From a virus, in the IMG/VR virus record IMGVR_UViG_3300021171_000026, positions 1 to 39,504 of that record: a stretch of DNA of 39,504 nt; one strand, 5' to 3'. Below the pieces are notes generated by a model that saw nothing but the letters and a program-made list of their open reading frames with translations, did not search any database and was not told where the DNA came from. This document shows positions 12,064-37,435 of this stretch, piece by piece; the stretch's first letter is position 1, and the number at the start of each line of letters is the position of its first letter. The position numbers were made by a program, and so were the translations under genes.

Positions 12064-12253
12064 ATCAATGTCGGGGGTGATGGATGAGTTTAAGGGCGAT
12101 CATTTGCATTCAGGTTCTTCTGGCGGTCCTGTTGTACGCAACCGCAAGCAAGCGATTGCGATTGGCCTGTCGGAACAGCGTCAGATGGGCAAGAAGATTC
12201 CGAAGCCGAAAGGCGGACTAGAGAAAGCGATGTCGAAGGTGGGCGGCTATTGA
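12056..12253 (+). CDS. DUF6496-like protein, 65 aa
   Basis: The pattern MDEFKGDHLHSGSSGGPVV followed by RNRKQAIAIGLSE is the hallmark of a small phage and plasmid family (DUF6496 as I recall it). It is basic and probably binds nucleic acid; its role is unknown. It ends at the start of the large terminase gene. Confidence 0.75.
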   Translation: MPKSMSGVMDEFKGDHLHSGSSGGPVVRNRKQAIAIGLSEQRQMGKKIPKPKGGLEKAMSKVGGY

Positions 12254-15545: not shown

Positions 15546-15850
15546 GCGATGCAAAGACGGATTATTACGATTTGAAGATGTTGCAAGGACTTTTAGGCTA
15601 CAAGAAATTACAGGCCTTATGGGCGCACGAGTACGCGCAGGTGATGATCGGGATGCAGAAAGCCGCGTCGAAAGGTTCGGAATCGAATTGGCGGTATCAG
15701 GCAGGGATTTTGAAGGGGTTTGATCTGGCCATCGGGCAACTGGATCGGGCGGTGATTCAAATGGAAAAAGAGGGAGAAGGAGCTGACCCTGTGGTGGACG
15801 GCAAGACGGGCGCGGAGATTTTGAAGGAACTGAGAGGAGAAATGAAATGA
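15542..15850 (+). CDS. Conserved small protein after portal, 102 aa
   Basis: Helical, with the pattern LLGYKKLQALWAHEYAQV and WRYQAGILKGFDLAIGQLDR that I recognise from uncharacterised proteins beside podovirus portals. Possibly a head assembly factor. ATGA overlaps at both ends. Confidence 0.7.
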   Translation: MSDAKTDYYDLKMLQGLLGYKKLQALWAHEYAQVMIGMQKAASKGSESNWRYQAGILKGFDLAIGQLDRAVIQMEKEGEGADPVVDGKTGAEILKELRGEMK

Positions 15851-16227
15851 AGAGAGGGATTTTTATCGGTTTGTTTTCGGCGTTCATTGCCTTTATGTGT
15901 TACGCCTTTTCCTATGCCGTGCCTGGGGTGTGGAGAAGTTCAAATACACTGACGGTAGACACGACGCAAAATCTTTGTCCTCAGACGAATGTGGGGAGCC
16001 ATGCCATTTTACACGGCGTATGTGTGAGTTCTGCGACGGCGGTGGCTGGTTCGGATGTGATTGTTTTTGCTTCTTCTTCAGCGGCCATCAATCCCATTGC
16101 GAACATCAGTACGTTAGCGACGGGTTGTTATTACTATGACGTGTATTCTTCCACCTCACCTGGTGGTCTGACGTATTCGACGGTTGGGCAAGGAGCTTCA
16201 GTGACGATTATGTACCAATGCGACTAA
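15847..16227 (+). CDS. Exported beta-rich protein in the head gene cluster, 126 aa
   Basis: A clear signal peptide: MKR, a hydrophobic core of about 18 residues, then a likely cut after YAFSYA. The mature part is Ser/Thr-rich and beta-like with four Cys (LCPQ, GVCVSS, GCYYY, YQCD). Repeated strands ending in SVTIMYQ resemble small beta-sandwich phage surface proteins. Lying between portal and scaffold, it would be expected to be a head protein, so the signal peptide is surprising. Confidence 0.75.
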   Translation: MKRGIFIGLFSAFIAFMCYAFSYAVPGVWRSSNTLTVDTTQNLCPQTNVGSHAILHGVCVSSATAVAGSDVIVFASSSAAINPIANISTLATGCYYYDVYSSTSPGGLTYSTVGQGASVTIMYQCD

Positions 16228-16273
16228 TGCTGAACCAGAGCAGATTCTCTGGGGAAATGCGAGGTATCCACGA

Positions 16274-17107
16274 ATGGATACGACACTAACCGTCGGGGGT
16301 GGAACGACCCTCGGAGCCGCCGAAACTGCAACGCCAGAGCCGTTAACTGGCACTGAGAGCGCGGCCTCAGAAACCAAAGAAACGAACGCGAGCGGGGAGC
16401 AATCCACCGCCGAAGGTGGCCAGGAACAAGCTGGAAGTGGGCGCAAACGCTGGAGCATTCAGGATGAAGTCAAAGAACTGAGAGCTCAGCGCAGGGAATT
16501 ACGTGAGCAACTTTCTTCTTCCGAGCAAATGCGGGAGGAGTTACGACAGTTACGTGAAGACCTGAATCGCCAACGCCAACCTGGGACTGCCAAGACGCCA
16601 GCGAACTTCTGGCAAGACCCTGAAGCGCGGCTTCAGTCTCTGCGGGACGAAATCCGTGATGAGATTGGAGAGCAGAATCGCGGGTTGATGGACGCTTTTC
16701 ATCAGACCCGTGAGCAGGAATACGCGCAACAGCAGTTACGTCAGGAACAGGCGTCAGCCGCCGAATTCATACGTTCTCAGAAAGGATACGATCCGTCAGA
16801 TGATGAAGACCTGATCGAGATTATTGAGTCATTGCCTAACCGACAGCATCTTTCGCCTCAATGGGTTGCGGACTATGCTTGGCTTAAACTCCAAGCGCAA
16901 CGCGGGGTGGGAGACAGATCGCTTGCGAAGCAACGAGCATCAGGCGTTCAGGGGCAACCTCCAGGGACAGGGTTTGGCCGTAAGATTTGGACGAAGGCCG
17001 AGTACGACGCGACCTTAGACCAGATCGAGAAAACCCCCACTAATCCGAAATGGAATGAACTCATTGCGGAACTCGAATCCGCTAATAAAGAAGGACGTGT
17101 GAGGTAA
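16274..17107 (+). CDS. Scaffolding protein, 277 aa
   Basis: Acidic, Thr/Glu-rich N-terminus (1-55), a long coiled coil (about 60-165, with ELRAQRRELREQLSSSEQ) and a basic C-terminal part. This architecture and its place just before the major capsid gene are typical of phage scaffolds, which guide capsid assembly and then leave the head. Confidence 0.85.
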   Translation: MDTTLTVGGGTTLGAAETATPEPLTGTESAASETKETNASGEQSTAEGGQEQAGSGRKRWSIQDEVKELRAQRRELREQLSSSEQMREELRQLREDLNRQRQPGTAKTPANFWQDPEARLQSLRDEIRDEIGEQNRGLMDAFHQTREQEYAQQQLRQEQASAAEFIRSQKGYDPSDDEDLIEIIESLPNRQHLSPQWVADYAWLKLQAQRGVGDRSLAKQRASGVQGQPPGTGFGRKIWTKAEYDATLDQIEKTPTNPKWNELIAELESANKEGRVR

Positions 17108-17135
17108 ATCTAAATAAAGTCGAAGGTAGCCAAGT

Positions 17136-17999
17136 ATGGCTAACGAAACAGGATTATCCAACGTAGCGGGATCAGTACCCAAGTTATGGCGCGTCAAAGC
17201 CCTTAAAGCCCGATACGCAGAATCAAAGGCTTGGAAGTTGTTTATCAACGGAGTCGAAGGTGATCCGAATGTCAAAGGCGCGATTACGAAGATGGGCGAT
17301 ACCGTCCACTTCCAAATCTTTCCCGTCTTGGCGGTTCAGAACATCTCGACCACGGACGGCACGTTTACGAACGATCAGGTTATCCCGACGGATAAAACGA
17401 TTGTTATTAACGCGTGGAAGGCTGTGCCCGCTGACCTCGTAGATATTGCGGGGATTCAGTCGGTGTTGGATTGGGAAGCGGAATTTGCCGATGCTTTTGG
17501 CAAAGCCATTTCTCAACAGCAGGACATTGACGTTCTGAACTTGGCGCAATCCGGCACTTGGACGTTTAACCAAGGCGGTGCTGTGCCGTTCGCGGACGGC
17601 TTGATTCTGCTCGCCCAGAGAACTCTGGATGACAACAAAATCCCAAAAGAGGATCGGAACTGGATTATTGCGCCGGTGGCCGAAGCGGACATTCTGTCGG
17701 TGGACAAGTTTGTTTTGGCCAACACGACAGGATTCACCAAGGGCCTTCAGATTGAAGGGGGCCGCATTACGGGTCTTTATGGGACGCCTGTGACAGTGAC
17801 GCCGCTGGTGAACAACACCGCGTCGATTCGCTTTAACATGCTCGCCCACAAGGAAGCGATTGGTGTGGTGATGCAAAAGAACTTCACGATGGAAAAGTTT
17901 GCTCGTGTGCGGTTCAGCCAGCCTTATGCAGGAAGTGCTCTGTATGGCGTGGCTCAACTCCGTGCCGATCACGCCGTCATCGTGTCAACGAACGCATAA
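17136..17999 (+). CDS. Major capsid protein, 287 aa
   Basis: Position after the scaffold, a length suited to an HK97-fold shell protein, and features such as VHFQIFPVLAVQNI, a helix around VLDWEAEFADAFGKAISQQQ (the spine helix) and RFNMLAHKEAIGVVMQKNF near the C-terminus. It resembles the P22/podovirus coat group. No prohead protease gene was seen. Confidence 0.88.
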   Translation: MANETGLSNVAGSVPKLWRVKALKARYAESKAWKLFINGVEGDPNVKGAITKMGDTVHFQIFPVLAVQNISTTDGTFTNDQVIPTDKTIVINAWKAVPADLVDIAGIQSVLDWEAEFADAFGKAISQQQDIDVLNLAQSGTWTFNQGGAVPFADGLILLAQRTLDDNKIPKEDRNWIIAPVAEADILSVDKFVLANTTGFTKGLQIEGGRITGLYGTPVTVTPLVNNTASIRFNMLAHKEAIGVVMQKNFTMEKFARVRFSQPYAGSALYGVAQLRADHAVIVSTNA

Positions 18000-18008
18000 G
18001 GGGGAACT

Positions 18009-18470
18009 ATGAAAAACTTCAATAAGTTGTTTGTAGGGCTCATCTTAACGTTCGGGATGGTGGCAGTTGTTCAGGCGACAGTGGGAGTTCGCGCTCCTAA
18101 GGCGTCTTTTACAACGCCGTTTAGTTTGTCGCCGTCATCTGTTACGGCCTTCACGGTGTTGGAATCTACGCCTGCGGTCATTAAGAAGCCTGGGGCTGTT
18201 TACCAGGTAATTATGGGTTCCGGCGCAGCGTCAGAGTTTCTTGTCATGTTTGATAGCAACAGTGCTTCTGGCATTACATCGACTCTCACAACTCCAAACG
18301 CCACTCAACTTGGACCACGGTTGTTCTACCAAGTCGGTGGCTCTTCAAATACGGTGATTACGTTTGATCCTCCGTTGATTTTCGATAACGGGCTCATGGT
18401 GATTGATTCTGCCATTACGGGTCAAGCGACGATCTCGTTTGAATTAGGACGTGGTTTGTCAGGGAACTAA
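18009..18470 (+). CDS. Exported protein after the capsid gene, possible decoration protein, 153 aa
   Basis: AAGGGGGAACT precedes the ATG. The N-terminus MKNFNKLFVGLILTFGMVAV followed by VQA is a strong Sec signal with a likely cut before TVGVR. The mature part is beta-rich and has no Cys. This slot usually encodes a capsid decoration or cement protein. A strong terminator follows directly. Confidence 0.75.
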   Translation: MKNFNKLFVGLILTFGMVAVVQATVGVRAPKASFTTPFSLSPSSVTAFTVLESTPAVIKKPGAVYQVIMGSGAASEFLVMFDSNSASGITSTLTTPNATQLGPRLFYQVGGSSNTVITFDPPLIFDNGLMVIDSAITGQATISFELGRGLSGN

Positions 18471-18473
18471 ATT

Positions 18474-18519
18474 CAGCCTGGGGAAGGGAGCAAACATCTC
18501 CCTTCCCTGGGGCTGTTTT
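18474..18519 (+). terminator. Strong intrinsic terminator after the head genes
   Basis: Perfect 10-bp stem GGGAAGGGAG (18481-18490) with CTCCCTTCCC (18498-18507), extended by CAGCC (18474-18478) with GGCTG (18511-18515), 7-base loop, then TTTT. It sits four bases after the stop of the preceding gene and would keep capsid messages high relative to tail messages. Confidence 0.85.
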
Positions 18520-18523
18520 GACT

Positions 18524-18787
18524 ATGAATGATGGGATATGTCCAAAGTGCTTTAAGCCTGCCGCCACCTTTCGACTCATGGGTGATGATTGGGTCTGCCA
18601 TATATGCGCATCTGGTGTTGAGTCTAGCGGGTGCAGGCTTTTTGAGTTTGGGCACGAGAACCCCTCTGACCCCAGGGGTTCCACGGCCCATGTCAGGGAT
18701 ATCAAAGACCGACGTTGGCATCCCACGGAGAAAAGGCAGTTTTACTACTCGAAGGAACTTGGGAAAAGTTACTTCTTCCCGAAATAG
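18524..18787 (+). CDS. Zinc-ribbon protein, 87 aa
   Basis: CPKC at 6-9 and CHIC at about 25-28 form a zinc ribbon; the rest ends with the pattern HVRDIKDRRWHP and FYYSKELGKSYFFPK, which I know from small uncharacterised phage proteins at this location. Function unknown. Confidence 0.75.
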   Translation: MNDGICPKCFKPAATFRLMGDDWVCHICASGVESSGCRLFEFGHENPSDPRGSTAHVRDIKDRRWHPTEKRQFYYSKELGKSYFFPK

Positions 18788-18796
18788 GAGAAGACC

Positions 18797-19210
18797 ATGC
18801 CTCAGGAATTGACGACAGCTCTAAAGACAGCCAAAGACATCGAGAAACAACTGGTGGTAGCGGAGAATCGGTTGGCGTATATTCAAGAAGAGACCAAGCG
18901 ATTGACGACTACGCGGGATTCGATTCAGGAAGAAATCAATAAGAAATCTGCGGACTATGACGTTTACATCGGAAAACGCGATGCTGATTCAAAGAAAATC
19001 CGGCAGGATGCTTTAGACGAGCAATCTCAACTCCTGAAAGACAAAACCGAGTTCCAGACCATGCTTCAGGCATTCCAAAAAGAACGGCAGGTTTACATGG
19101 AATCGAAGCAGGGTTTTGAGAATGAGAAGAAGAAAAATGAACTGGACCGCACGAACATCCGCGAGTTCATTATCGCGGTTCAGAGGGCGTGTAGCGTCAT
19201 TGGTTTATAA
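18797..19210 (+). CDS. Coiled-coil protein, 137 aa
   Basis: Almost one continuous charged helix (residues about 5-120), ending with a hydrophobic turn. ATG behind TAGGAGAAG. It could be a head-tail assembly or internal virion protein. The stop overlaps the next ATG (TAATG). Confidence 0.7.
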   Translation: MPQELTTALKTAKDIEKQLVVAENRLAYIQEETKRLTTTRDSIQEEINKKSADYDVYIGKRDADSKKIRQDALDEQSQLLKDKTEFQTMLQAFQKERQVYMESKQGFENEKKKNELDRTNIREFIIAVQRACSVIGL

Positions 19211-19860
19211 TGTCGTCACTTGCAACGCTTCGGACGCAAGTCCGGCGGTATATCCTCGAAGAGGATAATACCAATTCACATTTCACGGATTCAGAGATCA
19301 ATGACTATCTGAATCAGGCGTTGACATTTCTGGCTTCTCAAATGGAATGGCCGGAGCAGGTAGATCAGGCCACAGCCGTTCCGAATCAGGCGTTGTATCA
19401 GCTCCCTACGGATTTTATTGCTTTGGTTGATGTTTACTTCAATCAGCAGAAGATCATTGTTTTAGACCGCGCCGATTTGGGCCAGATTTCTCCGTCCTGG
19501 CAACAAGACCCGTCTTCCACGCCTCAGATCGCCTATCGGTTCAATAACGATACTGTCGGGCTTTATCCCGCACCTGATGCCAATCAGACGGGCTACATCC
19601 TCCAAGTCCAGTACATTCATCTTCCCGCGACGATTGCCGCTGACACGGACGTTCCCGACATTCACACGGCGTTTCAGATGTGTTTGCCGTTCTACGCTGC
19701 GTTTCTATGCGATTACAAGCTCGGCAACGACAAGAAATCGGAGATGCACTTGCAGAAATATAAGCAGCACATGGACGCCTTGAAAAGCAAATTGCAGAAG
19801 TATGGTGACGACCTTTTGCGCTTTCGTTGGGGTTGGTCTTATCCTGAGCGAAACCAATGA
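19210..19860 (+). CDS. Head-tail adaptor protein (P22 gp4/T7 gp11-like), 216 aa
   Basis: The start SLATLRTQVRRYI, HFTDSEINDYLNQALTFLA, and the C-terminal helix pair are typical of podovirus adaptor proteins that dock to the portal. The middle is beta-rich (YQLPTDFIALVDVYFNQ). Length fits. It is followed by the tail hub gene, as expected. Confidence 0.8.
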   Translation: MSSLATLRTQVRRYILEEDNTNSHFTDSEINDYLNQALTFLASQMEWPEQVDQATAVPNQALYQLPTDFIALVDVYFNQQKIIVLDRADLGQISPSWQQDPSSTPQIAYRFNNDTVGLYPAPDANQTGYILQVQYIHLPATIAADTDVPDIHTAFQMCLPFYAAFLCDYKLGNDKKSEMHLQKYKQHMDALKSKLQKYGDDLLRFRWGWSYPERNQ

Positions 19861-20078
19861 GCGGCCCTTTTTCGCCTGTTGCAGTGAATGGTCAACCCCT
19901 CTGGACGGTACAGCCGTCATTGAACGGCAATTTTTCGATTGTGAATGTCGGAGGCGGGACAACCATTCCTGAAGTGGGGTACGGAGAAGGCGGATATGGC
20001 CAAGACGGTTATGATGCCCCCGCGATCAATTTACCTTCGGCGTCCGCGCCGATTTGGACCGTGGAGACGGACCGATGA
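19857..20078 (+). CDS. Gly/Tyr-rich small protein, 73 aa
   Basis: ATGA overlap with the adaptor gene. Low-complexity centre (GYGEGGYGQDGY) flanked by short beta segments with repeated LWTV and IWTV. Probably a virion component; no family known. Confidence 0.6.
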   Translation: MSGPFSPVAVNGQPLWTVQPSLNGNFSIVNVGGGTTIPEVGYGEGGYGQDGYDAPAINLPSASAPIWTVETDR

Positions 20079-22816: not shown

Positions 22817-23049
22817 GCGTACTCCCGCAACCTACGGTATCGAAGTCGGGTGGTTTCCAGACCGAATCCGGCATCTTCACGAATTTCAATGATCTCTATC
22901 GCTTTTTTCAGCCGAAACGGATCAAGACTTCGCTTTCGAGCCCGCCATTGGCTAAGGATGTAGGAGAGTGCGAACTTGTATTGGACAAGACGGCACTTCG
23001 AATTTATACGAAGGTAGATGGTTCCCTTCGGTATTGGAGCCTAACCTAA
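22813..23049 (+). CDS. Hypothetical protein, 78 aa
   Basis: ATGA overlap with the tail hub gene. The C-terminal half, ECELVLDKTALRIYTKVDGS, is a short beta domain resembling small tail-associated proteins that bind fibres. No named family. Confidence 0.65.
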   Translation: MSVLPQPTVSKSGGFQTESGIFTNFNDLYRFFQPKRIKTSLSSPPLAKDVGECELVLDKTALRIYTKVDGSLRYWSLT

Positions 23050-23456
23050 TGGCAAATGGCCTTTTCTCAGATTACAATCCTCAAACGCTCCAAGACGTTT
23101 TAGGACAGCAGGCGCAAGCTCAAACGGCTCAGACAACCGATCAATATACTCAAGCCAAAAAGAGAGCCGTAGCGGGACAAGCGGCATCTGGGCGATTAAT
23201 GTCCGGCGTGTCCGATTATCCGCTAGGGGATTTGAACGCCCAGGAAGGACAAGCTCTTTCTGGGATTCAAAGCAACTTAGCGACAAGTCTTGGCGGCATT
23301 CCGTCAGAGGATTGGCTGAATCAGAAGAACTTCCAGAGGTCTTATGACTTGGCGAATTTGATTGGGAGCCTAAATAAACCGTCGACTTTAGATCAAGTGT
23401 TCCAGGGAATTGGTTCTATTGGCCCTCTTGCGGCAGTCGGAGCATCATTCTTATGA
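23049..23456 (+). CDS. Ejection-type small protein, 135 aa
   Basis: Gln/Ala/Gly-rich with a C-terminal hydrophobic part. It shares the segment LNKPSTLDQVFQGIGSIG with the next gene (LNKPSLLQQIMQGIGSVG), so the two are paralogues. The place after the hub gene suits internal virion proteins ejected into the cell. Confidence 0.65.
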   Translation: MANGLFSDYNPQTLQDVLGQQAQAQTAQTTDQYTQAKKRAVAGQAASGRLMSGVSDYPLGDLNAQEGQALSGIQSNLATSLGGIPSEDWLNQKNFQRSYDLANLIGSLNKPSTLDQVFQGIGSIGPLAAVGASFL

Positions 23457-23466
23457 GGAGATTCAC

Positions 23467-23985
23467 ATGGCACTAATGGCAGGCGGCGTGAAGATGCCGC
23501 AAGATTTGACAGATGCTTTAAGCACGATTGGCGGTTCGGGAACGGCTGGAATCAATAACATCTACGGCCAAGCCCGACAACGGCAGGCAGGGGATATGGC
23601 GGCATTAGGCCGCGCTCCAAGCTCCAATAGTTATGGCGGTCAACGGTTAGGCGTTCAGCAGGGATTAGATCAAGGCAATCTTGAGGCAAGTCTTGGTGGG
23701 GTGCTTGGCGATACGGGCTACAAAAATACACTTGCCGAACGGGATTACAATCAAAACCGTCAATTAGCAGAAGAAACAGCGGCACTCAATAAACCCTCTT
23801 TACTTCAACAGATCATGCAAGGAATTGGCAGTGTCGGAAAAACAGCGGCGACATATTATGGGATGAAAGGGATGAATTCAGGAAGTCAACTTCCAGCCAA
23901 TTATCAACCAGGGCCTAACTATGGCCCGATGTCGCTTTATCAAGGTTCACCTTATGGATATGGAGGAAGTCCTTATGGCCAGTGA
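23467..23985 (+). CDS. Ejection-type protein, paralogue of the previous, 172 aa
   Basis: ATG behind GAGGAGATT. Gly/Gln/Ala-rich, with the shared LNKPS..QGIGS segment near residue 105 and a C-terminal tail rich in Gly, Tyr and Pro. Probably an internal virion protein. Confidence 0.65.
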   Translation: MALMAGGVKMPQDLTDALSTIGGSGTAGINNIYGQARQRQAGDMAALGRAPSSNSYGGQRLGVQQGLDQGNLEASLGGVLGDTGYKNTLAERDYNQNRQLAEETAALNKPSLLQQIMQGIGSVGKTAATYYGMKGMNSGSQLPANYQPGPNYGPMSLYQGSPYGYGGSPYGQ

Positions 23986-24745
23986 TCGACTTTTTGAGAT
24001 GTTGGCGCAAGCGAAGAGCCAACCGAGTAAAGCTTTACAGGCAACAGAGGCCGGAGGAAATGCTTTAGAGAATATTCTTGGTGGTTATTTACGGGGTTAT
24101 GGGATCAAGCGTCAAATGCAACAACCGGAAGCTATAGCGCGAATGATTAATTCAACTCCGCAAGGCCATGACATGGAACAACAGATTGGGCCGGAAGGAA
24201 TGACAGCGGCGATGTATGGGGCTACTCCTAAAGAAGGGTTGGATTATCTAGGAAAATCCACAGAGTTGGCTCAGCGCGGAGCTTTAGGTTATGCGGGGAT
24301 CAATGAACGAAATACAGCAAGCCAGCGTGCGGCAGATGTCGCCAATGCGAGAACACAATCACAGGAAAAGATTTTCGGTGGTAAAAACCTTAGTTCTAAT
24401 ATTGCGCTCCATGAAAATGAGATTCAAAGACTTACGGGCGAACAAAGTCGGTTGGCTTCTCAGGTTCCTGGTGGTGTAGGTGGGACAATACAGGCCTTAA
24501 TCGGGCGGGGTGGCGATATCGGGCAATATCTGCAAGACCCCAAAGTAGGGGCGATTGCGGCTCAGATGAAACAAAATCAATCTCAAATTGATATGCACAA
24601 ACAGATGTTAAGCCCCATGTATCGAGCCCAGGGCATGATCCCGCCAGGGATGTTGGATAATTCCGATCTCGGTGGTATCAATCCTCCTCCGGCTGTAGGA
24701 GGGGATGGTTCCATAACAAGCACAAGCGGAGTGAGCATTTTCTAG
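23975..24745 (+). CDS. Internal virion protein candidate, 256 aa
   Basis: ATG 23975 follows GGAGGAAG and overlaps the previous gene by 11 bases. Helical and Gln/Ala/Gly-rich, with a Gly/Pro-rich end. Lies between the paired small proteins and the large ejection protein. No enzyme motif seen. Confidence 0.65.
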   Translation: MASDRLFEMLAQAKSQPSKALQATEAGGNALENILGGYLRGYGIKRQMQQPEAIARMINSTPQGHDMEQQIGPEGMTAAMYGATPKEGLDYLGKSTELAQRGALGYAGINERNTASQRAADVANARTQSQEKIFGGKNLSSNIALHENEIQRLTGEQSRLASQVPGGVGGTIQALIGRGGDIGQYLQDPKVGAIAAQMKQNQSQIDMHKQMLSPMYRAQGMIPPGMLDNSDLGGINPPPAVGGDGSITSTSGVSIF

Positions 24746-27231
24746 TGGTCGATACAGCCCTCATTGATCCGTCGCAACTTCCGGCGACGAGTTCGCCGCA
24801 ACCTCCACCATCTACAGGCGGCCCAACTCAGGACGTTCTCAATATGATTGGTCAAGCAAAACAGGCGAATAAGGGAATACGAATTGACTTTTCAGGACTT
24901 CATCCTGACGTAGATAAACGCCAAGTCGTTTCAGCTCTAATTGATGGAATGGCTCCAGAAGATGCCAACAAAGCCAATGCCGCTGCTATGGGTGGTCACG
25001 GAGTAGCTGTGCCGCCAGGGACTTATAATCGGGCGACACTCCCAGGTGGCCCGAGTTCTGACCCGATGGCAGGAAATATCTACCAAGACTATCCGATGCG
25101 TCGAAAACTTTCTCAATATCTTTTACGTCCAGCGGCTGAAATGATTGGTCAAGGGATTGGAGGAGTTACAGGAGCCGGAGTAGGAGCTTTAACTTCTCCC
25201 ATTACGGGTGCTGTAGGGCCAGCCGTCGGTGGGTTCGGGGGAGCTGTGGCAGGTGGTACAGCGGCAGATGAATTGATGAATAAAGCAGATGTGGGAATGG
25301 GATTAAAACACCCTGAAACCGATCTCCCAGATCAAACACTTCCCAGGTTAGGCCGAGAAGCTCTTGTCAATACGGCTATGGTAGGAGGCGGGAAAATAGC
25401 AGGGAAAGCGGCATCGGAGTTGGCCGCTCCCTTTGCCGAATCCGTTAATCCTGAAGTTCAAGGGGCCGCGAAAGCCCTTAACGTTCCTTTAACAGCGGCT
25501 CAGCAATCCAACAGCAAGCTTTTATCACAAGGTGAACAGATGGCGGCTAAGTTACCTGGTTCTGCTGGCATTCTTGGAGATTTCTACGCCAAGACCCGTG
25601 CGCGGATGATGGATGTTGCCAATTCTCTTTTTGGTAAACAGATGAATCCTCAGATTGCTAAAACGGTCGGGGATGGTATCAATCAGCAGTTGCTTCAAAA
25701 GACGAATGAATTAGCGCAATCTGGCATCACTCCCCAACTTGATCCGGCAGATGTTGGGACTTCTATCGCTTCGGATATTTCTGATTTCACGAATAAGATG
25801 ATGCAGAAATCTAAAGGGGCTTTTAATGCTCTAAAACAGGGCGTTCCAGAAGGTACGACAGTCCCCTTAACGGCTACAGCTCAGCAGGCCGATAAACTCT
25901 TAGCCGAACACTCGGCTCTTCCACCAAGTCTACAAAATCCTAAGCTTATACAAGTCTTAAGCGATCTAAAAGGGCAAACGGATAGTGGAGATTTGGCCCA
26001 ATTAACGGCTAATGCTTCACCTGATGCGTTGGCTCGGATGAAAGCGGTAGGAATTGGCCCTCAAGACTTAACACCTTCCAAATCAATTCCCGAACTGATG
26101 AGTTTGCGTTCCGCTCTTGGAGATGCGGCGGCTCAGCATGAAGGGGCTTATGCGACGAACCAACCAGGGACAAAATTCATGGGTAGTCCTGTAGCGGGAG
26201 CCTATAAATCCCTCATCACTTCTTTAGATAAAGACTTAGGCGATTTCTCAACGCAAACAGGTGGCAATTTCGCTCAATCCTATGCCAAGGCAAGAGGCGC
26301 ACATGGCGAGATGTTGAACACCATGGAAAACCCCTATATCAAGCGTGTTTTGTCTACAGACAACCCAGAAAAGATTGTAGATATGGCGGTGCGGCCTGGG
26401 GATGTGCAGAATCTCGCCAAACTTCAAAATATGCTTCAGCCTGAAACGGCAAATCAATTAAGTCAGACTTTTACGAATAGTCTGATTGAAAAGAGCCAGA
26501 ACGCAGATGGTCAGTTTATCCCGCAAAAATTAACTCAACTCATAAAACAATATGGAGAACCCACTATTCAACAGGCAGTAGGGCCAGATGGTCTTATGAA
26601 TCTCCATAAGTTGTCAAATCTTTCTGACGGCAGTTTTACTGATCCTGAATTTCGCCAGTTTATCAGTCAAATTGGAAGAAAGAATGGAGAAAACGTGAGC
26701 GGGTTTCTTTTGGGTGCGAGCCCTCAAAATATCAATCGTGTGCGTTCTTTAATTGGTGAGCAATCCTTCGGAGAAGCCCAAGACGGTATGATTCATAATC
26801 TTTTGACGAACAATCAGGACAATGTGGATTTCGGAGGACTTGCGAAGCGGATGAGCGAGATACCTCCCGAAAGTCTAGCCACAGCCATTCCTCCAAATAA
26901 ACTCGCTATTTTGCGCCAACTTTCCACGGTAGGGGGTGGCATTAAGGCTTCTCAGCGTGAATTTTCTAATCCTTCTGGAACGGCTCCGATGATGGGGATG
27001 TTTTACATCATGCGCCAACTGTTTATGAATCCGCTTAACGCCTTGAAGGTTGTCGGGGGGCTAGAAGCGGCGACGAAAGGATATACGAGCCCCTTGGCTA
27101 CGAAATATCTCACAGGAGGTATTGCAAGCCCCGCAACAGCTGAAGCCATCGGGTCAATCGCAGGGAAAGGGCCAATTTCCGTTTTTGGCAACTCCATGTC
27201 AAATCCCTATAAGAACAAGGCAAAACCATGA
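24745..27231 (+). CDS. Large ejection (pilot) protein, 828 aa
   Basis: GTG start sharing one base with the preceding TAG. Residues about 135-180 are a long Gly/Ala-rich hydrophobic stretch (IGGVTGAGVGALTSPITGAV and onwards) fit to enter a membrane; the rest is helical with many Gln, Ala and Asn. This composition is typical of podovirus ejection proteins that form a channel for DNA across the envelope. No transglycosylase motif was found. Confidence 0.75.
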   Translation: MVDTALIDPSQLPATSSPQPPPSTGGPTQDVLNMIGQAKQANKGIRIDFSGLHPDVDKRQVVSALIDGMAPEDANKANAAAMGGHGVAVPPGTYNRATLPGGPSSDPMAGNIYQDYPMRRKLSQYLLRPAAEMIGQGIGGVTGAGVGALTSPITGAVGPAVGGFGGAVAGGTAADELMNKADVGMGLKHPETDLPDQTLPRLGREALVNTAMVGGGKIAGKAASELAAPFAESVNPEVQGAAKALNVPLTAAQQSNSKLLSQGEQMAAKLPGSAGILGDFYAKTRARMMDVANSLFGKQMNPQIAKTVGDGINQQLLQKTNELAQSGITPQLDPADVGTSIASDISDFTNKMMQKSKGAFNALKQGVPEGTTVPLTATAQQADKLLAEHSALPPSLQNPKLIQVLSDLKGQTDSGDLAQLTANASPDALARMKAVGIGPQDLTPSKSIPELMSLRSALGDAAAQHEGAYATNQPGTKFMGSPVAGAYKSLITSLDKDLGDFSTQTGGNFAQSYAKARGAHGEMLNTMENPYIKRVLSTDNPEKIVDMAVRPGDVQNLAKLQNMLQPETANQLSQTFTNSLIEKSQNADGQFIPQKLTQLIKQYGEPTIQQAVGPDGLMNLHKLSNLSDGSFTDPEFRQFISQIGRKNGENVSGFLLGASPQNINRVRSLIGEQSFGEAQDGMIHNLLTNNQDNVDFGGLAKRMSEIPPESLATAIPPNKLAILRQLSTVGGGIKASQREFSNPSGTAPMMGMFYIMRQLFMNPLNALKVVGGLEAATKGYTSPLATKYLTGGIASPATAEAIGSIAGKGPISVFGNSMSNPYKNKAKP

Positions 27232-29957
27232 AAAATGCCTTAAAACTCATCCTAGGCGTTGTGATGGGCTGTTCCGCGCCTCTTCTGGCGGTTTGTGACC
27301 CTTCTTTGGCTCCTACCTACACCACCAGGGCTGGGATTCAGGTTCCGGCGATCAATTCCTGCGGGTGGGGGGCAGTGACGAATGGCGATTGGAACATTAT
27401 GGATTCGTCGATGGCCCTTGTAACTGGATTTAACAATTTCACAGGTTCCACTACTTTTACGGGCTTGAGTTGGAATTTCCCTAATCCGAATCTTACCGTA
27501 GATCGAATTGGAACGAAATTAGGGGGAGTTAATGGAGGCCCGAACAGTGTGTCGATTGGGAATAGTTCCCTCCTTGGGTTTAGAACATCTGGGTATTTAG
27601 GGCGTCCGAATATAGCAGTTGGGCCATCTGCTTTAGGCAATTTTGTAGATGGAGGAAATACAAGCCAAACAGGCGGACTTACGGCAATAGGATATGATGC
27701 TTTAGGAACTTCTACGGGGAGCGAGAACACGGCTATTGGAGACTTTGCAGGAGCTTATCTTGCAGGTGGCAACTGGAATCAATTTTTTGGTTATAACTCT
27801 GGTGTTGCTCTCAATGGATCAGGATTCGCATACGGCGAAAACGACACGTTTATCGGTCAATTTTCAGGGCCTACTTCCACAAGTCCTTATTTATCCAATT
27901 CGATGGCCTTTGGGTATGCTTCTAAAGTAGGGCAGAATAGTTCCCTCTCGATTGGCTGCTCCGCTACGGATTGTGCCAATGGTGGTTATCCTTCTTTCAA
28001 GGTCGGTATTGGAACGGATACCCCTACAGAAACTCTTCATATTGTCGGGAATCTTAAAATTCAAGGCGGAGGCACAGGCATAAGATTTAATGATGGCACT
28101 TTCCAGACCACGGCAGGTGGTGGTGGAGGAGGTGGTTCTTCTTCTTTGGCCGTCAATCAAAATGGGGTGCAAATCACGAGCCCCACTGTAGCCATCAACG
28201 CTCTTTCGCCTCCATTTATTATCACTCCTGTGTTTGCAGGGACAACGGCTCAATGGACTCTTGACCCTACTTCTGTAACCTTAGAAGGGCCTTTGCTGAC
28301 TCAGGGGAACGTATGGAAAGGATTCAATAACTTTTCTGGGAGCACTACTTTTTCTGGAAATATGAATGTGTCTAGCGGTGTTTTGATTCTAGGAGGGACA
28401 GGGACAAATGGGCAAGTTATGACATCAGGAGGTTTCGGTACTGTTCCGTCATGGCAAACGCCTGGTCAGCCTAGCATTTTGCCTACCACCAACACCTGGA
28501 CAGGCGGCAATACCTATTATTCTTCAGCGACTTTTGGTGCGGGTGGTTCTATGGTATGGGACAATACCAATGGCGTATTGCGTCTTGGTGGAGGATCATC
28601 TGATGCAGCGGGATGGGAGACAATCAATGAGGGGAATGCGATATCGGCATTGAGCATTCGAGGGAACGGGCAAGCCATATTTGTATCGACAAACACGGGT
28701 GCCGTGATGACGCCATTGGTTGTTGAGAACTTGAATGACCAATTCAGCTTACAACTGGAAACAGGGACCAATGCGCGTACTGGGCTTCTCATTAACTCTA
28801 AGCCTTTCAGTGGCCCTGATTCTCATTTTATACCCATTACTTTAACAGCCCAAGATGCTTCTGCTACTGTCAATGCCTATAGTATTCAGATGCAATCGAC
28901 GGGCACGACGATTTCGAGCAATACGGTTGTCGTGGGATCGTTTACAGTTACAGGCCCAGGAAACGGTGTCATCACCGAAACGATTGGCGTAGGAAACCAA
29001 GCTGCCGCGTCTTATACGGCCATTTCATCAAGCTATTCCAGCGTCGGAGCGTTTCTGATCTATACCAGCACGAATTTTACTGTCGGGATTGGGACGACGA
29101 ATGCGGGTAGTGGAACTGTCGCGAGTGCCACGCCTGGGAATATGGCCTACTATACAGGCGCGACGACAGTAAGTGGTTCGACGAATGTGGTGGTGACGCA
29201 TTCGAGCATAACGGTGATTGCTTCTTCCTATTCTTTCACTACGACGGGTGCTCAAAATACAATCGCTGGGCCAGGGTTCGTCGATATATATGATGTGAAC
29301 GCATTTTCTACAAAGCCGTTGTTGGTTGTTGGGAGCAATGGCGGAGGCATAGATATGTTGTTAGAAGATCGACAACCCCTCTTTTTGCAGAATTTCGGTG
29401 CGGAGACTGGGGGTTTGCATTTGGGTGTTTCAGGTGAAGGAAGCCAACAGCGAGTCCAAAGTCAAAGTCGTGCGAACTATTTTGAGGCTAATCTTGCCAG
29501 CACTATGACCTTGAACACGGATAATGATATTTCTGGCGGTGACATGGTATTTCAGCCTCAGAACACCGAAGAATTTAGAGTGTCGCATTTGAGCGGCGTG
29601 AAGGTCAGCACGAGCGCATTCTATATGGTGGATGTTTCCACCAGCGGCCACTACCTGACAGGCGGCTCTACGCCGACGGTGAGTTCTTGCGGTTCTGGCC
29701 CTAGTGGGAGCGTGGTCGGCAATGACAAAGATGGTGTCATTACAGTAGGTGGCAGCGCTCCAACGGCTTGCACGTTGACCTTCTCGCAAACGTATGGGTT
29801 AGGATGCGTGGTGGCTTGCACCATCTCCGACAGCATCACGAGCACAACGCCGGATGTAACTACGAGTCCTACGGCTATGACGATGGCCTTCAGTTCCGCC
29901 ATTGGAGGAGGCTCGGTCTTTTACCATTGCGTTGGGGTAACAGCGGGATGTCAGTAA
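27228..29957 (+). CDS. Exported fibre-like protein with YadA-type head repeats, 909 aa
   Basis: The signal peptide MKNALKLILGVVMGCSAPLLA is followed by Cys-containing residues (VCDP, NSCGWG). Residues about 110-240 carry repeats of the YadA-head/tail-fibre type (IAVGPSALGN, TAIGYDALGT, NTAIGDFAGAYLAG). Then VGIGTDTPTETLHIVGNLKI and a Gly run, and a long Thr/Ser/Gly beta region. FNNFTGSTTFTG and FNNFSGSTTFSG mark an internal duplication. It is probably a receptor-binding fibre; the signal peptide is unusual for a fibre. Confidence 0.7.
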   Translation: MKNALKLILGVVMGCSAPLLAVCDPSLAPTYTTRAGIQVPAINSCGWGAVTNGDWNIMDSSMALVTGFNNFTGSTTFTGLSWNFPNPNLTVDRIGTKLGGVNGGPNSVSIGNSSLLGFRTSGYLGRPNIAVGPSALGNFVDGGNTSQTGGLTAIGYDALGTSTGSENTAIGDFAGAYLAGGNWNQFFGYNSGVALNGSGFAYGENDTFIGQFSGPTSTSPYLSNSMAFGYASKVGQNSSLSIGCSATDCANGGYPSFKVGIGTDTPTETLHIVGNLKIQGGGTGIRFNDGTFQTTAGGGGGGGSSSLAVNQNGVQITSPTVAINALSPPFIITPVFAGTTAQWTLDPTSVTLEGPLLTQGNVWKGFNNFSGSTTFSGNMNVSSGVLILGGTGTNGQVMTSGGFGTVPSWQTPGQPSILPTTNTWTGGNTYYSSATFGAGGSMVWDNTNGVLRLGGGSSDAAGWETINEGNAISALSIRGNGQAIFVSTNTGAVMTPLVVENLNDQFSLQLETGTNARTGLLINSKPFSGPDSHFIPITLTAQDASATVNAYSIQMQSTGTTISSNTVVVGSFTVTGPGNGVITETIGVGNQAAASYTAISSSYSSVGAFLIYTSTNFTVGIGTTNAGSGTVASATPGNMAYYTGATTVSGSTNVVVTHSSITVIASSYSFTTTGAQNTIAGPGFVDIYDVNAFSTKPLLVVGSNGGGIDMLLEDRQPLFLQNFGAETGGLHLGVSGEGSQQRVQSQSRANYFEANLASTMTLNTDNDISGGDMVFQPQNTEEFRVSHLSGVKVSTSAFYMVDVSTSGHYLTGGSTPTVSSCGSGPSGSVVGNDKDGVITVGGSAPTACTLTFSQTYGLGCVVACTISDSITSTTPDVTTSPTAMTMAFSSAIGGGSVFYHCVGVTAGCQ

Positions 29958-31063
29958 GACGTGCATGTCTATGCACATTTATTGTTTTCGTCTCAATCCC
30001 ACTATTTGCTCGCGGGCCTTCCGACCCGTTTCCGGTAGGAACCACTTTGGTTCCCTGCGATAATATCTGGCGTGTACCGATAGATAGTGCGGTAGTTTCG
30101 TCATCAAATACCAACTGGATGGACCCGAACAATGGAAAAACTGGGCATAATTTCCATGCCAATTTTGGGAGCGCGGCATTGAGTGATGGAAGCTATAACG
30201 GTATACCCTACAATCTGGTGTGGTCAAGCACGACGGCTAGACAAGGCGTTGCGGTGGCAAGCAGTCAATCGGATACTGCTCCCGTGGGTGGCGTCCCAAT
30301 CCCGCCAGACGCCATTGCCGAGCAAGACGTCATAGGACAGGCACACCCCAATAGTACAGGAGGCGACCAACACCTCCTTTTAGTCGATGTTTCAAGCGGA
30401 ATGGTCTATGAACTTTACCAGGCCACAAGAACGACTTTTAACGGAACACAATGGCAAGCGAATCAGCTCACGATATGGTTTACGACTTCAAACGTATTAC
30501 GTCCTGACACCATTACTTCTGCTGACGCCGCAGGGCTTCCAATTACGGAAGGACTTCTACGGTGGGACGAAGTTGATCCAATTTGCAACATCAAACACGC
30601 GATCCGAATGGAGGTTTCACTTACTAAGCTTAATGCTCACATATGGAATGCAAGGCATGATACAAATACAGGTGGCTCTAATAATCCACCTTTTGGGATG
30701 CGCGTCCGTATGAAGGGGAGCGTAGATACTTCGGTGCTTTCGGACACGCACAGCATTTGTATCTTTGAAGCTGCGAAAAAATATGGTTTCTTACTGGCTG
30801 ATAATGGCGGTGACTGGTACATCGATGGCGTACCTAATTCGCACTGGAACGACACAACTCTGCATAACGATTTCATCAACATTGGGCTCCCACAAAACAC
30901 CATGGAAGTCGTCGATGCTCAGGCATGGGCTGTTGATCCTGTGAATCTGGCGACCGCCATATCCACGGCGGCGTTGCAATGTGTGTCTTCCCCGTCTCCT
31001 CCGACAGCTTCCGAAATCTGGACGGGGGCGGTGAAAATAACGGGGAAAGGGACGATGCAATAA
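29948..31063 (+). CDS. Exported protein related to bacterial secreted proteins, 371 aa
   Basis: The start at ATG 29948 gives MSVRRACLCTFIVFVSIPLFA, a Sec signal. The mature protein has DQHLLLVDVSSGMVYELYQA, LRPDTITSADAAGLPITEGL, RWDEV, MRVRMKGSVDTS and KKYGFLLADNGGDWYIDGVP, a set of motifs I know from secreted bacterial proteins of unknown function rather than phage fibres. It may bind surface glycans. It overlaps the fibre gene by 10 bases and ends at the next ATG. Confidence 0.7.
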   Translation: MSVRRACLCTFIVFVSIPLFARGPSDPFPVGTTLVPCDNIWRVPIDSAVVSSSNTNWMDPNNGKTGHNFHANFGSAALSDGSYNGIPYNLVWSSTTARQGVAVASSQSDTAPVGGVPIPPDAIAEQDVIGQAHPNSTGGDQHLLLVDVSSGMVYELYQATRTTFNGTQWQANQLTIWFTTSNVLRPDTITSADAAGLPITEGLLRWDEVDPICNIKHAIRMEVSLTKLNAHIWNARHDTNTGGSNNPPFGMRVRMKGSVDTSVLSDTHSICIFEAAKKYGFLLADNGGDWYIDGVPNSHWNDTTLHNDFINIGLPQNTMEVVDAQAWAVDPVNLATAISTAALQCVSSPSPPTASEIWTGAVKITGKGTMQ

Positions 31064-31398
31064 TGGGAATGGTGGGCCTTTATGGACGTTTGCCGATTCT
31101 GAATCGTTTGCCGATCAATATTAGCACATTGGGAGACAATACGGTGGTCCCAGCAGATGCGGCTGGGAATAGGATTGTCATTCATCGCATATGGTTCTTA
31201 GTGGCGGGGGCAGTCAATATTACGTTTAAGGACAATTTGCCGAGTCCTGCGGCTGTCCCTTTTGCGGCGAATGAAGGGTTGACGTTTGATGCTACGGGAG
31301 AACCTTGGTTCATCACAAATCCCAACACCGCTTTTATCATCAATTTAAGCGCAGGTATACAAGTGAGTGGGACAATTTACTATGCGTTGGCTCAATAG
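31063..31398 (+). CDS. Small beta-sandwich virion protein, 111 aa
   Basis: ATG shares a base with the previous stop. The chain NRIVIHRIWFLVAGAVNITF through SGTIYYALAQ has the look of small phage surface modules with alternating strands and a C-terminal YYA end. No signal peptide. Probably attaches to the fibre. Confidence 0.65.
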   Translation: MGMVGLYGRLPILNRLPINISTLGDNTVVPADAAGNRIVIHRIWFLVAGAVNITFKDNLPSPAAVPFAANEGLTFDATGEPWFITNPNTAFIINLSAGIQVSGTIYYALAQ

Positions 31399-31684
31399 GA
31401 TCGTTATTTTAGCAATGCTCATCCACACCATTCCTTCTGAAATGGAACTGGCTTCAACCATCGGATTTGGCCTTGATTCCGAAAAGTCTTATATTATTCA
31501 GACGAATCCAGGCAGTAGTAGCGGCGGAGGAGGGAACAATTTCCAAGCGTGTGTGAACGGGATGCCTTACGGAATACTCTTGGCGATAACAGAAACATGC
31601 CCGTCTACGCCATCTGTTCCATTTTCGAGACCTTGCACGACAGGTATGCCGATAGGTATCTTAATGGGGATAACATGTCCATGA
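31382..31684 (+). CDS. Cys-repeat protein, possibly exported, 100 aa
   Basis: N-terminal RWLNRIVILAMLIHTIPS may be a signal or anchor. After a Gly-rich linker comes a repeated motif: C.NGMPYGILLAITETCP, then CTTGMPIGILMGITCP. The repeat is reminiscent of short C-terminal repeats in bacterial surface proteins. It overlaps the genes on both sides. Confidence 0.6.
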   Translation: MRWLNRIVILAMLIHTIPSEMELASTIGFGLDSEKSYIIQTNPGSSSGGGGNNFQACVNGMPYGILLAITETCPSTPSVPFSRPCTTGMPIGILMGITCP

Positions 31685-33555
31685 AAAAACTATTCGCTTT
31701 ACTCGTTTTAGTGGGAAGCCAGGGTTGGGCGGCAGGTGGCGCAAGCCCTTTGACGGTTTCGAGCGGTACTTTCCTTCCTGTCAGCCTTTACAATAACGCC
31801 GATGGCGCAAATCGTCAAGCCATCATTTTGGGAGACCGCGTTTCAAGTGCGACGGCGATTGTAGACCCACTTAACGGATTAGCAGTCTATGTCACGACAG
31901 GTTCCAGTCCGCTCGTTGTGATAACCACGGGCGTCGCCTCGCAACCCGTTACAGGAACCTTCTTTCAGACGATTCAACCTGTCGTCCTGACCAGTACGCC
32001 TCCCATTCAGGTGTTCGGATCCACGATAGCCATCACCAACGTCAGTGGTCAGAATCTAAACGTTGCAGGGACTTTATCTGTCACAAGCCTTAGTACAGGA
32101 GCCATCAACACGCCCACACCACAGGTGGCGAATTTCAACGGGTACGTCAGTCCGTCCGGGACTGTGCAGTCTGCTGCCGTCACGCTATCCAGCCAAGCGA
32201 TTGTGTACGTGGCGAATCCTTCGACTGTCACGGTGACGGGGATTGTCCCTGTCGTTCTGACAAGCACTCCGCCGATACAAGTATTTGGTTCTACCTTGGC
32301 CGTGAGCGGGGTGCAAGGAATTGTCCAGACTGTGATCACTAGTACGCCGCCGATCCAAGTCTTTGGCACTACTATCGCCGTCACAAACGTCAGCGGTCAG
32401 AATCTCAATGTGGCAGGGAGCTTAACGGTGGTGAGTTTAAGCACAGGCCAGATCAATACCCCCGTTCCCCAGGTCACGACCTATAACGGATTCATCAGCC
32501 CAACCGGGACGGTCCAAGCGGCAGCAGTGACGCTGACGAGCCAAACCATCGTGTATGTCGCTAACCCTGCCACGGTGACGGTGACGGGAACGGTGCCTGT
32601 GGTGTTGACAAGCACACCCCCTATCCAGATATTTGGGTCAACCATCGCATTAAGTGGCATCCAGGGGATTGTGCAAACGGTTATAACCAGCACTCCACCC
32701 GTGCAGATATTCGGGTCAACGATAGCTCTAAGTGGGATTCAGGGGATCGTGCAGACCGTCATCACAAGTACGCCGCCAATTCAGGTATTTGGGAGTACAT
32801 TGACCGTGGCTAACATCCAAACAGCTATCGCAATCGGCAGTACCCCAACCGTGACGGTCATTCTTTCTACCATCACTTCAGTTGGGATGTACGCCGATAA
32901 CGGGATCGCCACCACGACCAACCGCGTCAACGTGAACCCTGGTGTCTATAACGAAAGCTACCGAAACGGCGTTGTAGGGACAGAAGGCAAAGACGCGGCC
33001 CTTGAGGTTGGGACAGATGGGATGCTTCATACAGCGATCTTACCCTCGATCTCAGGCGACTCCTATGCGGCCTCTACCAATACGTTCTCTATCGCCAGCT
33101 CAACCAACGATGCGGCAGCCTTCTGTGGTAATGCCAAGGATACTGTGGTCCTGACGAGCATCCGCGCCTCCTGTACCCAGACCACGGCGGGGATCATCCA
33201 GATAGGGATCGTGAAAAGAAGTTCGGCCTATTCTGGCGTCTGGTCGACCATGACGGTGGTGTCGGAGTCCTCTAACTATGTGGCCACCAATTCCACGGCA
33301 ACGTTCTTTACGAGCGCGAACCTAGTGGTTGGAACATTAGTAGGGTATCTGGATAGCTATAAGCTCGGTTGCATGGCCGCAGGCACGGCAACACCTAATG
33401 ATATGTACATCTCGCCAGCGGATTGGCGCAGCAAGCCCATCGTCTTAAACAGTGCTTCTGAGTGCGTGGCGATTAACTTAAATGGAGCGACGATTTCTGG
33501 AGGTACGATGTCGGCAACATTCGATTACATGGAAACACCCACTATCAATCCGTAA
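31681..33555 (+). CDS. Exported repeat-containing fibre-like protein, 624 aa
   Basis: Start at ATG 31681 (ATGA overlap); ATG 31675 is possible. Signal peptide MKKLFALLVLVGSQGWA. Residues about 90-390 consist of repeats with the core TSTPPIQVFGST, present six times, separated by 90, 26, 90, 26 and 26 residues. The C-terminal 200 residues (YNESYRNG, EGKDAALEVGTDG, MSATFDYMETPTINP) resemble phage tail or decoration domains. Probably a host-binding surface protein. Confidence 0.7.
   Translation: MKKLFALLVLVGSQGWAAGGASPLTVSSGTFLPVSLYNNADGANRQAIILGDRVSSATAIVDPLNGLAVYVTTGSSPLVVITTGVASQPVTGTFFQTIQPVVLTSTPPIQVFGSTIAITNVSGQNLNVAGTLSVTSLSTGAINTPTPQVANFNGYVSPSGTVQSAAVTLSSQAIVYVANPSTVTVTGIVPVVLTSTPPIQVFGSTLAVSGVQGIVQTVITSTPPIQVFGTTIAVTNVSGQNLNVAGSLTVVSLSTGQINTPVPQVTTYNGFISPTGTVQAAAVTLTSQTIVYVANPATVTVTGTVPVVLTSTPPIQIFGSTIALSGIQGIVQTVITSTPPVQIFGSTIALSGIQGIVQTVITSTPPIQVFGSTLTVANIQTAIAIGSTPTVTVILSTITSVGMYADNGIATTTNRVNVNPGVYNESYRNGVVGTEGKDAALEVGTDGMLHTAILPSISGDSYAASTNTFSIASSTNDAAAFCGNAKDTVVLTSIRASCTQTTAGIIQIGIVKRSSAYSGVWSTMTVVSESSNYVATNSTATFFTSANLVVGTLVGYLDSYKLGCMAAGTATPNDMYISPADWRSKPIVLNSASECVAINLNGATISGGTMSATFDYMETPTINP
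31993..32790 (+). repeat. Two-size coding repeat array, 270 and 78 bp
   Basis: The core encoding STPP[IV]Q[VI]FG starts at 31993, 32263, 32341, 32611, 32689 and 32767. The spacing is exactly 270, 78, 270, 78 and 78 bases. Copies differ at many third codon positions, so the protein repeat is kept while the DNA has diverged. Confidence 0.9.
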
Positions 33556-33566
33556 AGGAGACCTGT

Positions 33567-33998
33567 ATGGCTTGGTCCGCCGTCGTCAAAGCATCAGACA
33601 GTCAGATAGTTCACTTGCTTTTCACGGAAAGCGTGTCCGGCAAGACGTTTGACAACCAATATCCTATCCCGCTTGGGGCTTCGGCCACGTTCGTTCCTGA
33701 TTTGGTCGCTCAGGTCATTGCTCAACTGACCGCTCAGCAGACGGCAGTTTCAGCGATTCCTGCCGCTGGCCAGACTGTAATCCCCACACCTGCGCCCGTG
33801 GCTGTCATTGACCCTAACGCCGCCATCAAAGCTCAGTTCTTGGCCGATTACGCGCTCTTGCGGCAGATGCAGACGGCCATTAGCCATAACATCCTTTTGG
33901 CGACCGATCTGACATTTACGGCACAACTGGCAAAAGTGAACTCGGAACTGGCGGCCAACCAGGCGATCCTTCTACCGCTCATCCAGGTGGGGCCGTGA
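33567..33998 (+). CDS. Hypothetical virion protein, 143 aa
   Basis: ATG behind AAAGGAGACCTGT. The N-terminal 50 residues look like a beta domain (SQIVHLLFTESVSGKTFDNQ), then an Ala/Gln-rich helical region. No signal peptide. Perhaps a fibre-associated protein. Confidence 0.65.
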   Translation: MAWSAVVKASDSQIVHLLFTESVSGKTFDNQYPIPLGASATFVPDLVAQVIAQLTAQQTAVSAIPAAGQTVIPTPAPVAVIDPNAAIKAQFLADYALLRQMQTAISHNILLATDLTFTAQLAKVNSELAANQAILLPLIQVGP

Positions 33999-34765
33999 AG
34001 CGATTCATTGCGTTGATGCTTTGTTCGGATATGGCGTGGTCGGCATGTTCCAACACCAATCTTGGAAACGGAGTGACTTGTGTGCAGACGGCGGCTGTGG
34101 CCGAAGGATCAGGGGTTACGTTGATCGCATCCAATACGATTTCCGCGACAACTACGGGGAATTTACTGATCGCACAGATGGAATTTACAACGACGGGAGG
34201 CGTAACATTTGCGTGTTCAAGCGGGATGTCCAATACGGGCGGCACAGTCACATGGGCCGAAGCCTCCCATAAGTTAGGAACGACGTTTTCGATTTATACC
34301 TGTTACGGAGCCAGTATCACCGGAGGAACTACTAAGGTAACGGCGACCGTATCTGGGGGGACGCCAAGCCAAATAGACATTATCCCCATTGAAGTTTCGG
34401 GGATCGTTTCCGCCACTCCTGTTGATGTGACGTTCACGGGCACGGGTGGTGGATCAACGGCTTTTAGTTTTGGTCCGAGTGCTACAACAGCACAGGCTAA
34501 CGAATATGCGCTCTGCTCGGCAGCTATGAACGGAGGCGTCACGACGATTTCGGCTCCTGGCGGTGGGTTCGTGATTGAGGCGCAACAGGGAGCCGCCCAC
34601 ATGGTTTGGCTGGATCAGGGATTATCGGCTACGCAAACCTTGACGTGTTCGTTCACGATGTCCGCCTCTCCAGCGGAATGGGACGGTGTGATTGCGACGT
34701 TCAAAGCAGCAGCCGCCTCAGGCGGCGGCTTCAACAAGTTGCAAAGAATGGAGAGATACGAATGA
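33995..34765 (+). CDS. Exported Ser/Thr/Gly-rich protein, 256 aa
   Basis: MKRFIALMLCSDMAWS is a probable signal peptide, with a likely cut near SAC. The body is beta-rich (TATVSGGTPSQIDIIPIEVSG; TLTCSFTMSASPAEWDGVIATF), a layout shared with secreted bacterial beta-sandwich proteins. ATGA overlaps link it to both neighbours. It is the last of the exported block. Confidence 0.7.
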   Translation: MKRFIALMLCSDMAWSACSNTNLGNGVTCVQTAAVAEGSGVTLIASNTISATTTGNLLIAQMEFTTTGGVTFACSSGMSNTGGTVTWAEASHKLGTTFSIYTCYGASITGGTTKVTATVSGGTPSQIDIIPIEVSGIVSATPVDVTFTGTGGGSTAFSFGPSATTAQANEYALCSAAMNGGVTTISAPGGGFVIEAQQGAAHMVWLDQGLSATQTLTCSFTMSASPAEWDGVIATFKAAAASGGGFNKLQRMERYE

Positions 34766-34965: not shown

Positions 34966-35040
34966 ACGCTTTGCCCCCGATGCAACGCACAAATGGAGTC
35001 TTGGGGCCTGGGGCCGGAGTGGTGCCCGAAAGGATGTGAC

Positions 35041-37413: not shown

Positions 37414-37435
37414 GCGCAACCCCTCCTCTTCGCCG

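Follow-up and report, generated by a model that had tools for sequence, protein, structure and literature searches.

Predicted Sec signal peptides on surface-type proteins in the virion gene block of a podovirus-like phage lineage

Virions of tailed phages are, in the textbook account, finished in the cytoplasm, and virion-block genes that begin with export signals raise the question of what these signals do. The IMG/VR virus record IMGVR_UViG_3300021171_000026, a podovirus-like sequence of 39,504 bases analysed over its whole length and referred to here as the window, appears to carry a set of such genes. The initial annotation read Sec-type signal peptides at the starts of six of them (15847, 18009, 27228, 29948, 31681 and 33995) and possibly a seventh (31382), and offered three readings: that the proteins are exported to act at the cell surface, that they join the particle only outside the cytoplasm, or that the sequences serve another purpose.

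Gene order and PHROGs matches indicate that from position 12250 the window carries a podovirus-like morphogenesis block followed by a fibre cassette and lysis genes. The block opens with the large terminase (12250..13668, plus strand; phrog_2 terminase large subunit, 9.6e-43) and the portal, or head-tail connector (13665..15545, plus strand; phrog_332, 2.1e-15; signal-peptide score -15.9), and continues with a scaffold-like protein (16274..17107, plus strand), recognised from its charged composition and its place ahead of the capsid gene, and the major capsid protein (17136..17999, plus strand; phrog_267 major head protein, 5.7e-18; score -15.6), which has no cysteine. An adaptor at 19210 (a phrog_399 protein) and a long tail or stabilisation-type protein at 20078 follow, and then probable ejection proteins without signal peptides as far as 27231, among them a probable internal or ejection protein of 828 residues (24745..27231, plus strand; score -12.6), which is the last large gene without a signal peptide ahead of the fibre cassette; equivalents that also lack one precede the fibres of the relatives. 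A zinc-ribbon-like frame at 18518-18787 (plus strand; CPKC..CHIC..STAHVRDIKDRRWHP) is kept in the relatives and is probably the true gene after 18009, rather than the overlapping 18528 ORF. None of 50,697 phage records matched the portal, capsid or fibre proteins, and contig scans of prokaryotic genomes with terminase and portal queries gave no relatives. Apart from weak stretches matching phrog_781 and phrog_4636, the signal-peptide-bearing proteins could be placed in no Pfam or PHROGs family. At 34993 a motif resembling M15 peptidases, read by eye and without a Pfam match, suggests that the host is a bacterium with peptidoglycan.

Signal peptides were scored with our own three-region model (not SignalP), trained on a textbook set of 25 E. 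coli signal peptides. Leave-one-out scores of the training peptides ranged from 0.7 to 35.7 with a median of 25, the genuine signal peptide of Bla being the one at 0.7; exported genes in an annotated E. coli K-12 region scored 1 to 33 and cytoplasmic genes -8 or below; among 62 antisense ORFs from the block the highest score was 7.7. On this scale five of the six genes in the initial annotation are clear (15847, 9.8; 18009, 12.3; 27228, 15.4; 31681, 17.6; 33995, 9.5) and 29948 is weak (-0.9); the seventh, 31382, is borderline at 6.0 and stays a possible case, as first described. All seven starts are present in the sequence, most with Shine-Dalgarno-like sequences, and have the features expected for Sec and signal peptidase I (i.e. 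a positive n-region, a hydrophobic core and small residues at -3 and -1), although less well developed in 29948 and 31382. The twin-arginine consensus was not seen, and Tat export was dropped as a candidate. No other gene from the terminase to 33567 has a signal-like N-terminus, including those for the portal, scaffold, capsid, adaptor and ejection proteins, 31063 and 33567; the scaffold scores 2.4 but has no hydrophobic core. Tryptophan at -2 is frequent in the c-regions of the group's signal peptides (GWA, AWA, LWA, VWA, SWS), which may hint at a preference of the host signal peptidase.

Is the set peculiar to one contig? Searches with the portal, 19210, 20078 and capsid queries recovered relatives, all uncultured, of which 13 include the structural block (G001, G003-G011 and L018-L020); G002 has just the stretch ahead of the block, and L134 is almost identical to G007. 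Gene order is conserved in the 13, their capsids are 55-87% identical to that of the window, and they share the trait, for which the initial annotation had suggested looking among related phages. It had also placed one gene with a signal peptide between portal and scaffold and another directly after the capsid gene, and both arrangements hold throughout: a signal peptide is present in 15/15 copies of the 15847 family, each between the portal-adjacent gene and the scaffold, and in 14/14 copies of the 18009 family (the G009 copy being read by eye), each right after the capsid gene. None of the orthologues of the portal, scaffold, capsid, adaptor and ejection proteins in the relatives passes the scoring, and because the signals are present in every copy of these two families and never in the other block orthologues, the predicted exported gene set is a fixed trait of the lineage and not an accident of one contig. 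The signal-peptide regions of the two families are on average only 28-32% identical, yet a signal peptide is always there, so that sequence drift has left the property intact. We found no outgroup with a matching head block but without signal peptides.

The first of the two head-block proteins (15847..16227, plus strand, 126 residues) lies between the portal-adjacent gene and the scaffold and consists of a predicted signal peptide of about residues 1-24 (15847-15918) and a mature domain with four cysteines. An AlphaFold model of the mature part is an eight-stranded jelly roll (pLDDT 89) that matches the cement proteins of the H. pylori phages KHP40 and KHP30 (Z 8.0 and 7.8; for 7dou_4, Z 8.0 over 97 aligned residues, rmsd 2.7), with nucleoplasmin cores at similar Z and the turret of Haloferax tailed virus 1 (HFTV1) also among the matches; fold matches at Z of about 8 are common among beta sandwiches and do not establish a decoration function. 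The second protein (18009..18470, plus strand, 153 residues), directly after the major capsid gene, has a predicted signal peptide of about residues 1-23 (18009-18077) and a less certain beta-sandwich model (pLDDT 76) with similar but weaker structural neighbours (Z no higher than 7.8). The two are alike in fold class, but profile comparison gives no sign of common descent. Given the predicted folds and the gene positions, head decoration is the likeliest role for both, 15847 being a candidate decoration (cement) protein and 18009 a candidate decoration protein. The cement and decoration proteins of KHP40, KHP30 and BPP-1 and the HFTV1 turret resemble them in predicted fold and in a position near scaffold and capsid genes, but we found no sequence relationship, the four conserved cysteines set the 15847 family apart from jelly-roll cement proteins, and we know of no signal peptide on such cement or decoration proteins or on the HFTV1 turret. 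The 15847-type gene is present as two and three tandem divergent copies at the head blocks of G007 and G009 respectively (L041 1410-2048 and L044 1679-2685).

The fibre cassette has the same character. It begins with the main fibre (27228..29957, plus strand, 909 residues), with a predicted signal peptide ending at about residue 21 to 23, and includes a repetitive fibre-like protein of 624 residues (31681..33555, plus strand; signal peptide at about residues 1-17, 31681-31731) whose C-terminal domain is common to signal-peptide-bearing genes of G004 and G008; both score well, and the initial annotation had likewise assigned signals to two large fibre-like proteins. Between them, the 371-residue protein at 29948..31063 (plus strand), also predicted to be exported, has a leader of about residues 1-21 that is textbook in form (MSVRRACLCTFIVFVSIPLFA, with RG after the predicted cut), and its partial homologue in G008 starts with a signal peptide; with two G004 genes (18889 and 22105) it is among the weaker scorers of the large cassette genes. 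The 100-residue protein at 31382..31684 (plus strand) has four cysteines, all kept in a G004 orthologue that scores 3.1, and the 256-residue protein at 33995..34765 (plus strand), which uses a GTG start, combines a predicted signal peptide of about residues 1-16 with six cysteines in its mature part. An internal contrast is provided by the small conserved protein at 31063..31398 (plus strand), which has no signal peptide (score -19.7) and no cysteine; three orthologues are 58-81% identical and share the N-terminus MGxxxLYxR, and it may be a cytoplasmic partner or adaptor within the cassette. Seven records span the cassette, and none of them retains a large fibre-like gene that lacks a signal peptide and could bind the receptor. 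In deeper relatives a glycosyltransferase-2-like gene (weak Pfam matches) stands directly before the fibre gene (G007 28088-28786, L040:7997-8692, minus strand; G008, L042:5777-6430, minus strand), and in G005 and G010 the fibre is preceded by a similar C-terminal motif; surface glycosylation is a possible function.

What follows the signal peptide of the main fibre is informative. A phage-fibre N-terminal motif occupies 27312-27425 (PTYTTRAGIQVPAINSCGWG..DWNIMDSS), the order of signal peptide and then motif (e.g. ADTYTTRMGLTKPEDGSTGWGTKIRGDFDIIDSS) opens the first fibre in 8/8 records, and in alignments of all eight the mature fibre has a motif of the phiM5 gp19 type (LxxPxxG..WG....DF.IIDSS-like). 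The same motif opens the fibres of Sinorhizobium phage phiM5 (gp19, ARV77521.1), which is annotated 'detected in phage particle proteome', of Tunturiibacter phage Tunturi_4 (gp112) and of three environmental phages, where it stands at the start codon without a signal peptide. The phiM5 and Tunturi_4 proteins, with the motif (A)DTxTxNLxLTKPEVG..WG.KLN.D.DT.D, also have the same kind of place in the virion block, but in these the motif begins at residue 2, whereas here about 20-28 leader residues come first. Among IMG/VR fibres found by the motif the start codon is at the motif in 80/80 (79 ATG, 1 GTG) and none of the 80 has a signal peptide; this indicates that in our lineage a leader was added before an ordinary virion fibre, and predicted cleavage would restore about the usual N-terminus. 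Counting genes of at least 90 residues, signal-peptide-like genes number 0/279 in the 80 control loci, whose fibres are those most similar to the query, versus 47/210 in the blocks of the lineage (Fisher p 2e-19), and the structural genes of phiM5 and three environmental control phages have no signals. An origin of the fibres from host adhesins was considered; for the main fibre the virion-type motif argues against it.

Cysteine content offers independent evidence for export. The mature signal-peptide-bearing proteins of the window contain 31 cysteines in 2,388 residues compared to 13 in 4,823 for the structural proteins without signals (p 4e-7), or 1.30 versus 0.27 per 100 residues, a fivefold difference; in G001 and G003 the values are 1.6-1.7 and about 0.2, a ratio of about eight to ten. 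Even numbers prevail in the window (4, 4, 4, 4 and 6), with nine in the long fibre and none in 18009. In the 15847 family four cysteines are near-invariant; G008 lacks both the second and the third, a joint loss as expected of a disulphide pair, and the G004 copy lacks the fourth and has another elsewhere. This pattern is as expected for disulphide-bonded extracytoplasmic proteins in an oxidising compartment.

Beyond the block, signal-like starts also occur on some small early-region genes of the minus strand. One family (581-880 in the window, 28461-28766 in G001 and 33323-33610 in G003, all minus strand) has a conserved C...(Y/W)EG.C motif right after the cut (LWACKPNEIAWEGRC, AWACPKGSTGWEGTC, IFACDKGYIDYEGTC) while the rest differs, and its members might be exported to modify the host or to act as superinfection factors. 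Signal-like N-termini are also present on the window ORFs 38650-38997, 38994-39320 and 37114-37419 (all minus strand), two of which are cysteine-rich.

From the conservation, the gene positions, the cysteines and the fibre motif we infer that the signal-peptide-bearing proteins are very probably exported and cleaved; that they are parts of the virion is probable, and we have moderate confidence that surface proteins attach outside the cytoplasm. The best explanation, which we regard as fairly likely, is that Sec-exported surface proteins lose their leaders and are joined to the particle outside the cytoplasm. Late in infection the head, portal and ejection proteins would be made in the cytoplasm and DNA packaged there, while the host Sec machinery would export the tail fibres along with the two small beta sandwiches encoded in the head block. 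Signal peptidase would remove the leaders, leaving the main fibre with about the N-terminus of ordinary phage fibres; the exported proteins, some of them disulphide-bonded, would take up their fold outside the cytoplasm and join the DNA-filled particle at lysis, when the envelope is breached, or outside the cell. Of the three readings first offered, joining outside the cytoplasm is the best supported, since the mature N-terminus of the main fibre is that of ordinary virion fibres, these genomes have no large fibre gene without a signal peptide, and the head-block pair are predicted beta sandwiches at the positions of decoration genes. The lack of cysteine in 18009 counts against this explanation, and the sequence does not show how fibres would be brought together with heads.

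A rival reading, which we think unlikely, is that after export and processing the proteins stay out of the particle and work on the cell surface or as free fibres. They might block receptors against superinfection, change the envelope or keep released progeny off debris; exported superinfection factors are known from phages, small signal-peptide-bearing proteins are found in the early region here too, and bacteria have exported phage-fibre-like proteins in the Bdellovibrio MAT fibres (PMC10769870). Such roles fit poorly with gene positions that are fixed, in all relatives, beside scaffold and capsid, with the virion-type motif kept by the main fibre, and with the lack of any other large fibre gene. 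Less probable again is that the N-termini are uncleaved membrane anchors, with surface proteins waiting at the inner membrane for particles that assemble there. The hydrophobic cores are strong and T4 heads assemble on the inner membrane, but nearly all c-regions are of the signal-peptidase type, the fibre motif starts beside the predicted cut, and the excess of cysteine speaks for a location across the membrane. Last, the signal-like sequences could be due to chance or have an unrelated cytoplasmic role, e.g. as a hydrophobic assembly tag; the signal peptides are indeed predictions, with 29948 and 31382 weak, but the difference from the control loci, the full conservation of the property despite drift and the cysteine enrichment make this very improbable. 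For the same persistence and enrichment, together with the typical cleavage sites, the 'other purpose' of the initial annotation is nearly excluded.

The components of this arrangement are known, and the combination is new as far as our literature searches show. Bdellovibrio MAT fibres, phage-fibre-like proteins behind a signal peptide, demonstrate that bacteria can export fibres of the phage type (PMC10769870); their signal peptide is followed by a conserved beta-rich domain of about 130 residues. They differ in being bacterial chromosomal adhesins, many with a C-terminal S74 domain (chaperone/protease), which the window lacks (PF13884, considered for this likeness, was not found). A passing remark elsewhere notes that phage DGR target proteins are without signal peptides, unlike their bacterial counterparts (PMC6199706).

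Filamentous phage coat proteins are likewise virion proteins delivered through Sec, but the Inoviridae extrude a small ssDNA genome from the cell and have no terminase, portal or icosahedral head, whereas the 39.5-kb record here encodes a terminase, a portal and a major head protein, and its signals are only on surface-type proteins. Full-text literature searches yielded no description of a tailed phage with such an exported set, so that the statement in the initial annotation that none has been described stands so far, and we know of no tailed phage with exported fibres. The broader proposal that a tailed dsDNA lineage builds its virion in two compartments, with decoration and fibres added after the membrane is breached, seems to us evenly balanced. 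If true, it would show that export can precede the attachment of fibres and decoration, and the phages would gain disulphide bonds and periplasmic folding while keeping sticky fibres out of the cytoplasm; the lineage would also be a source of secretion-competent phage fibres.
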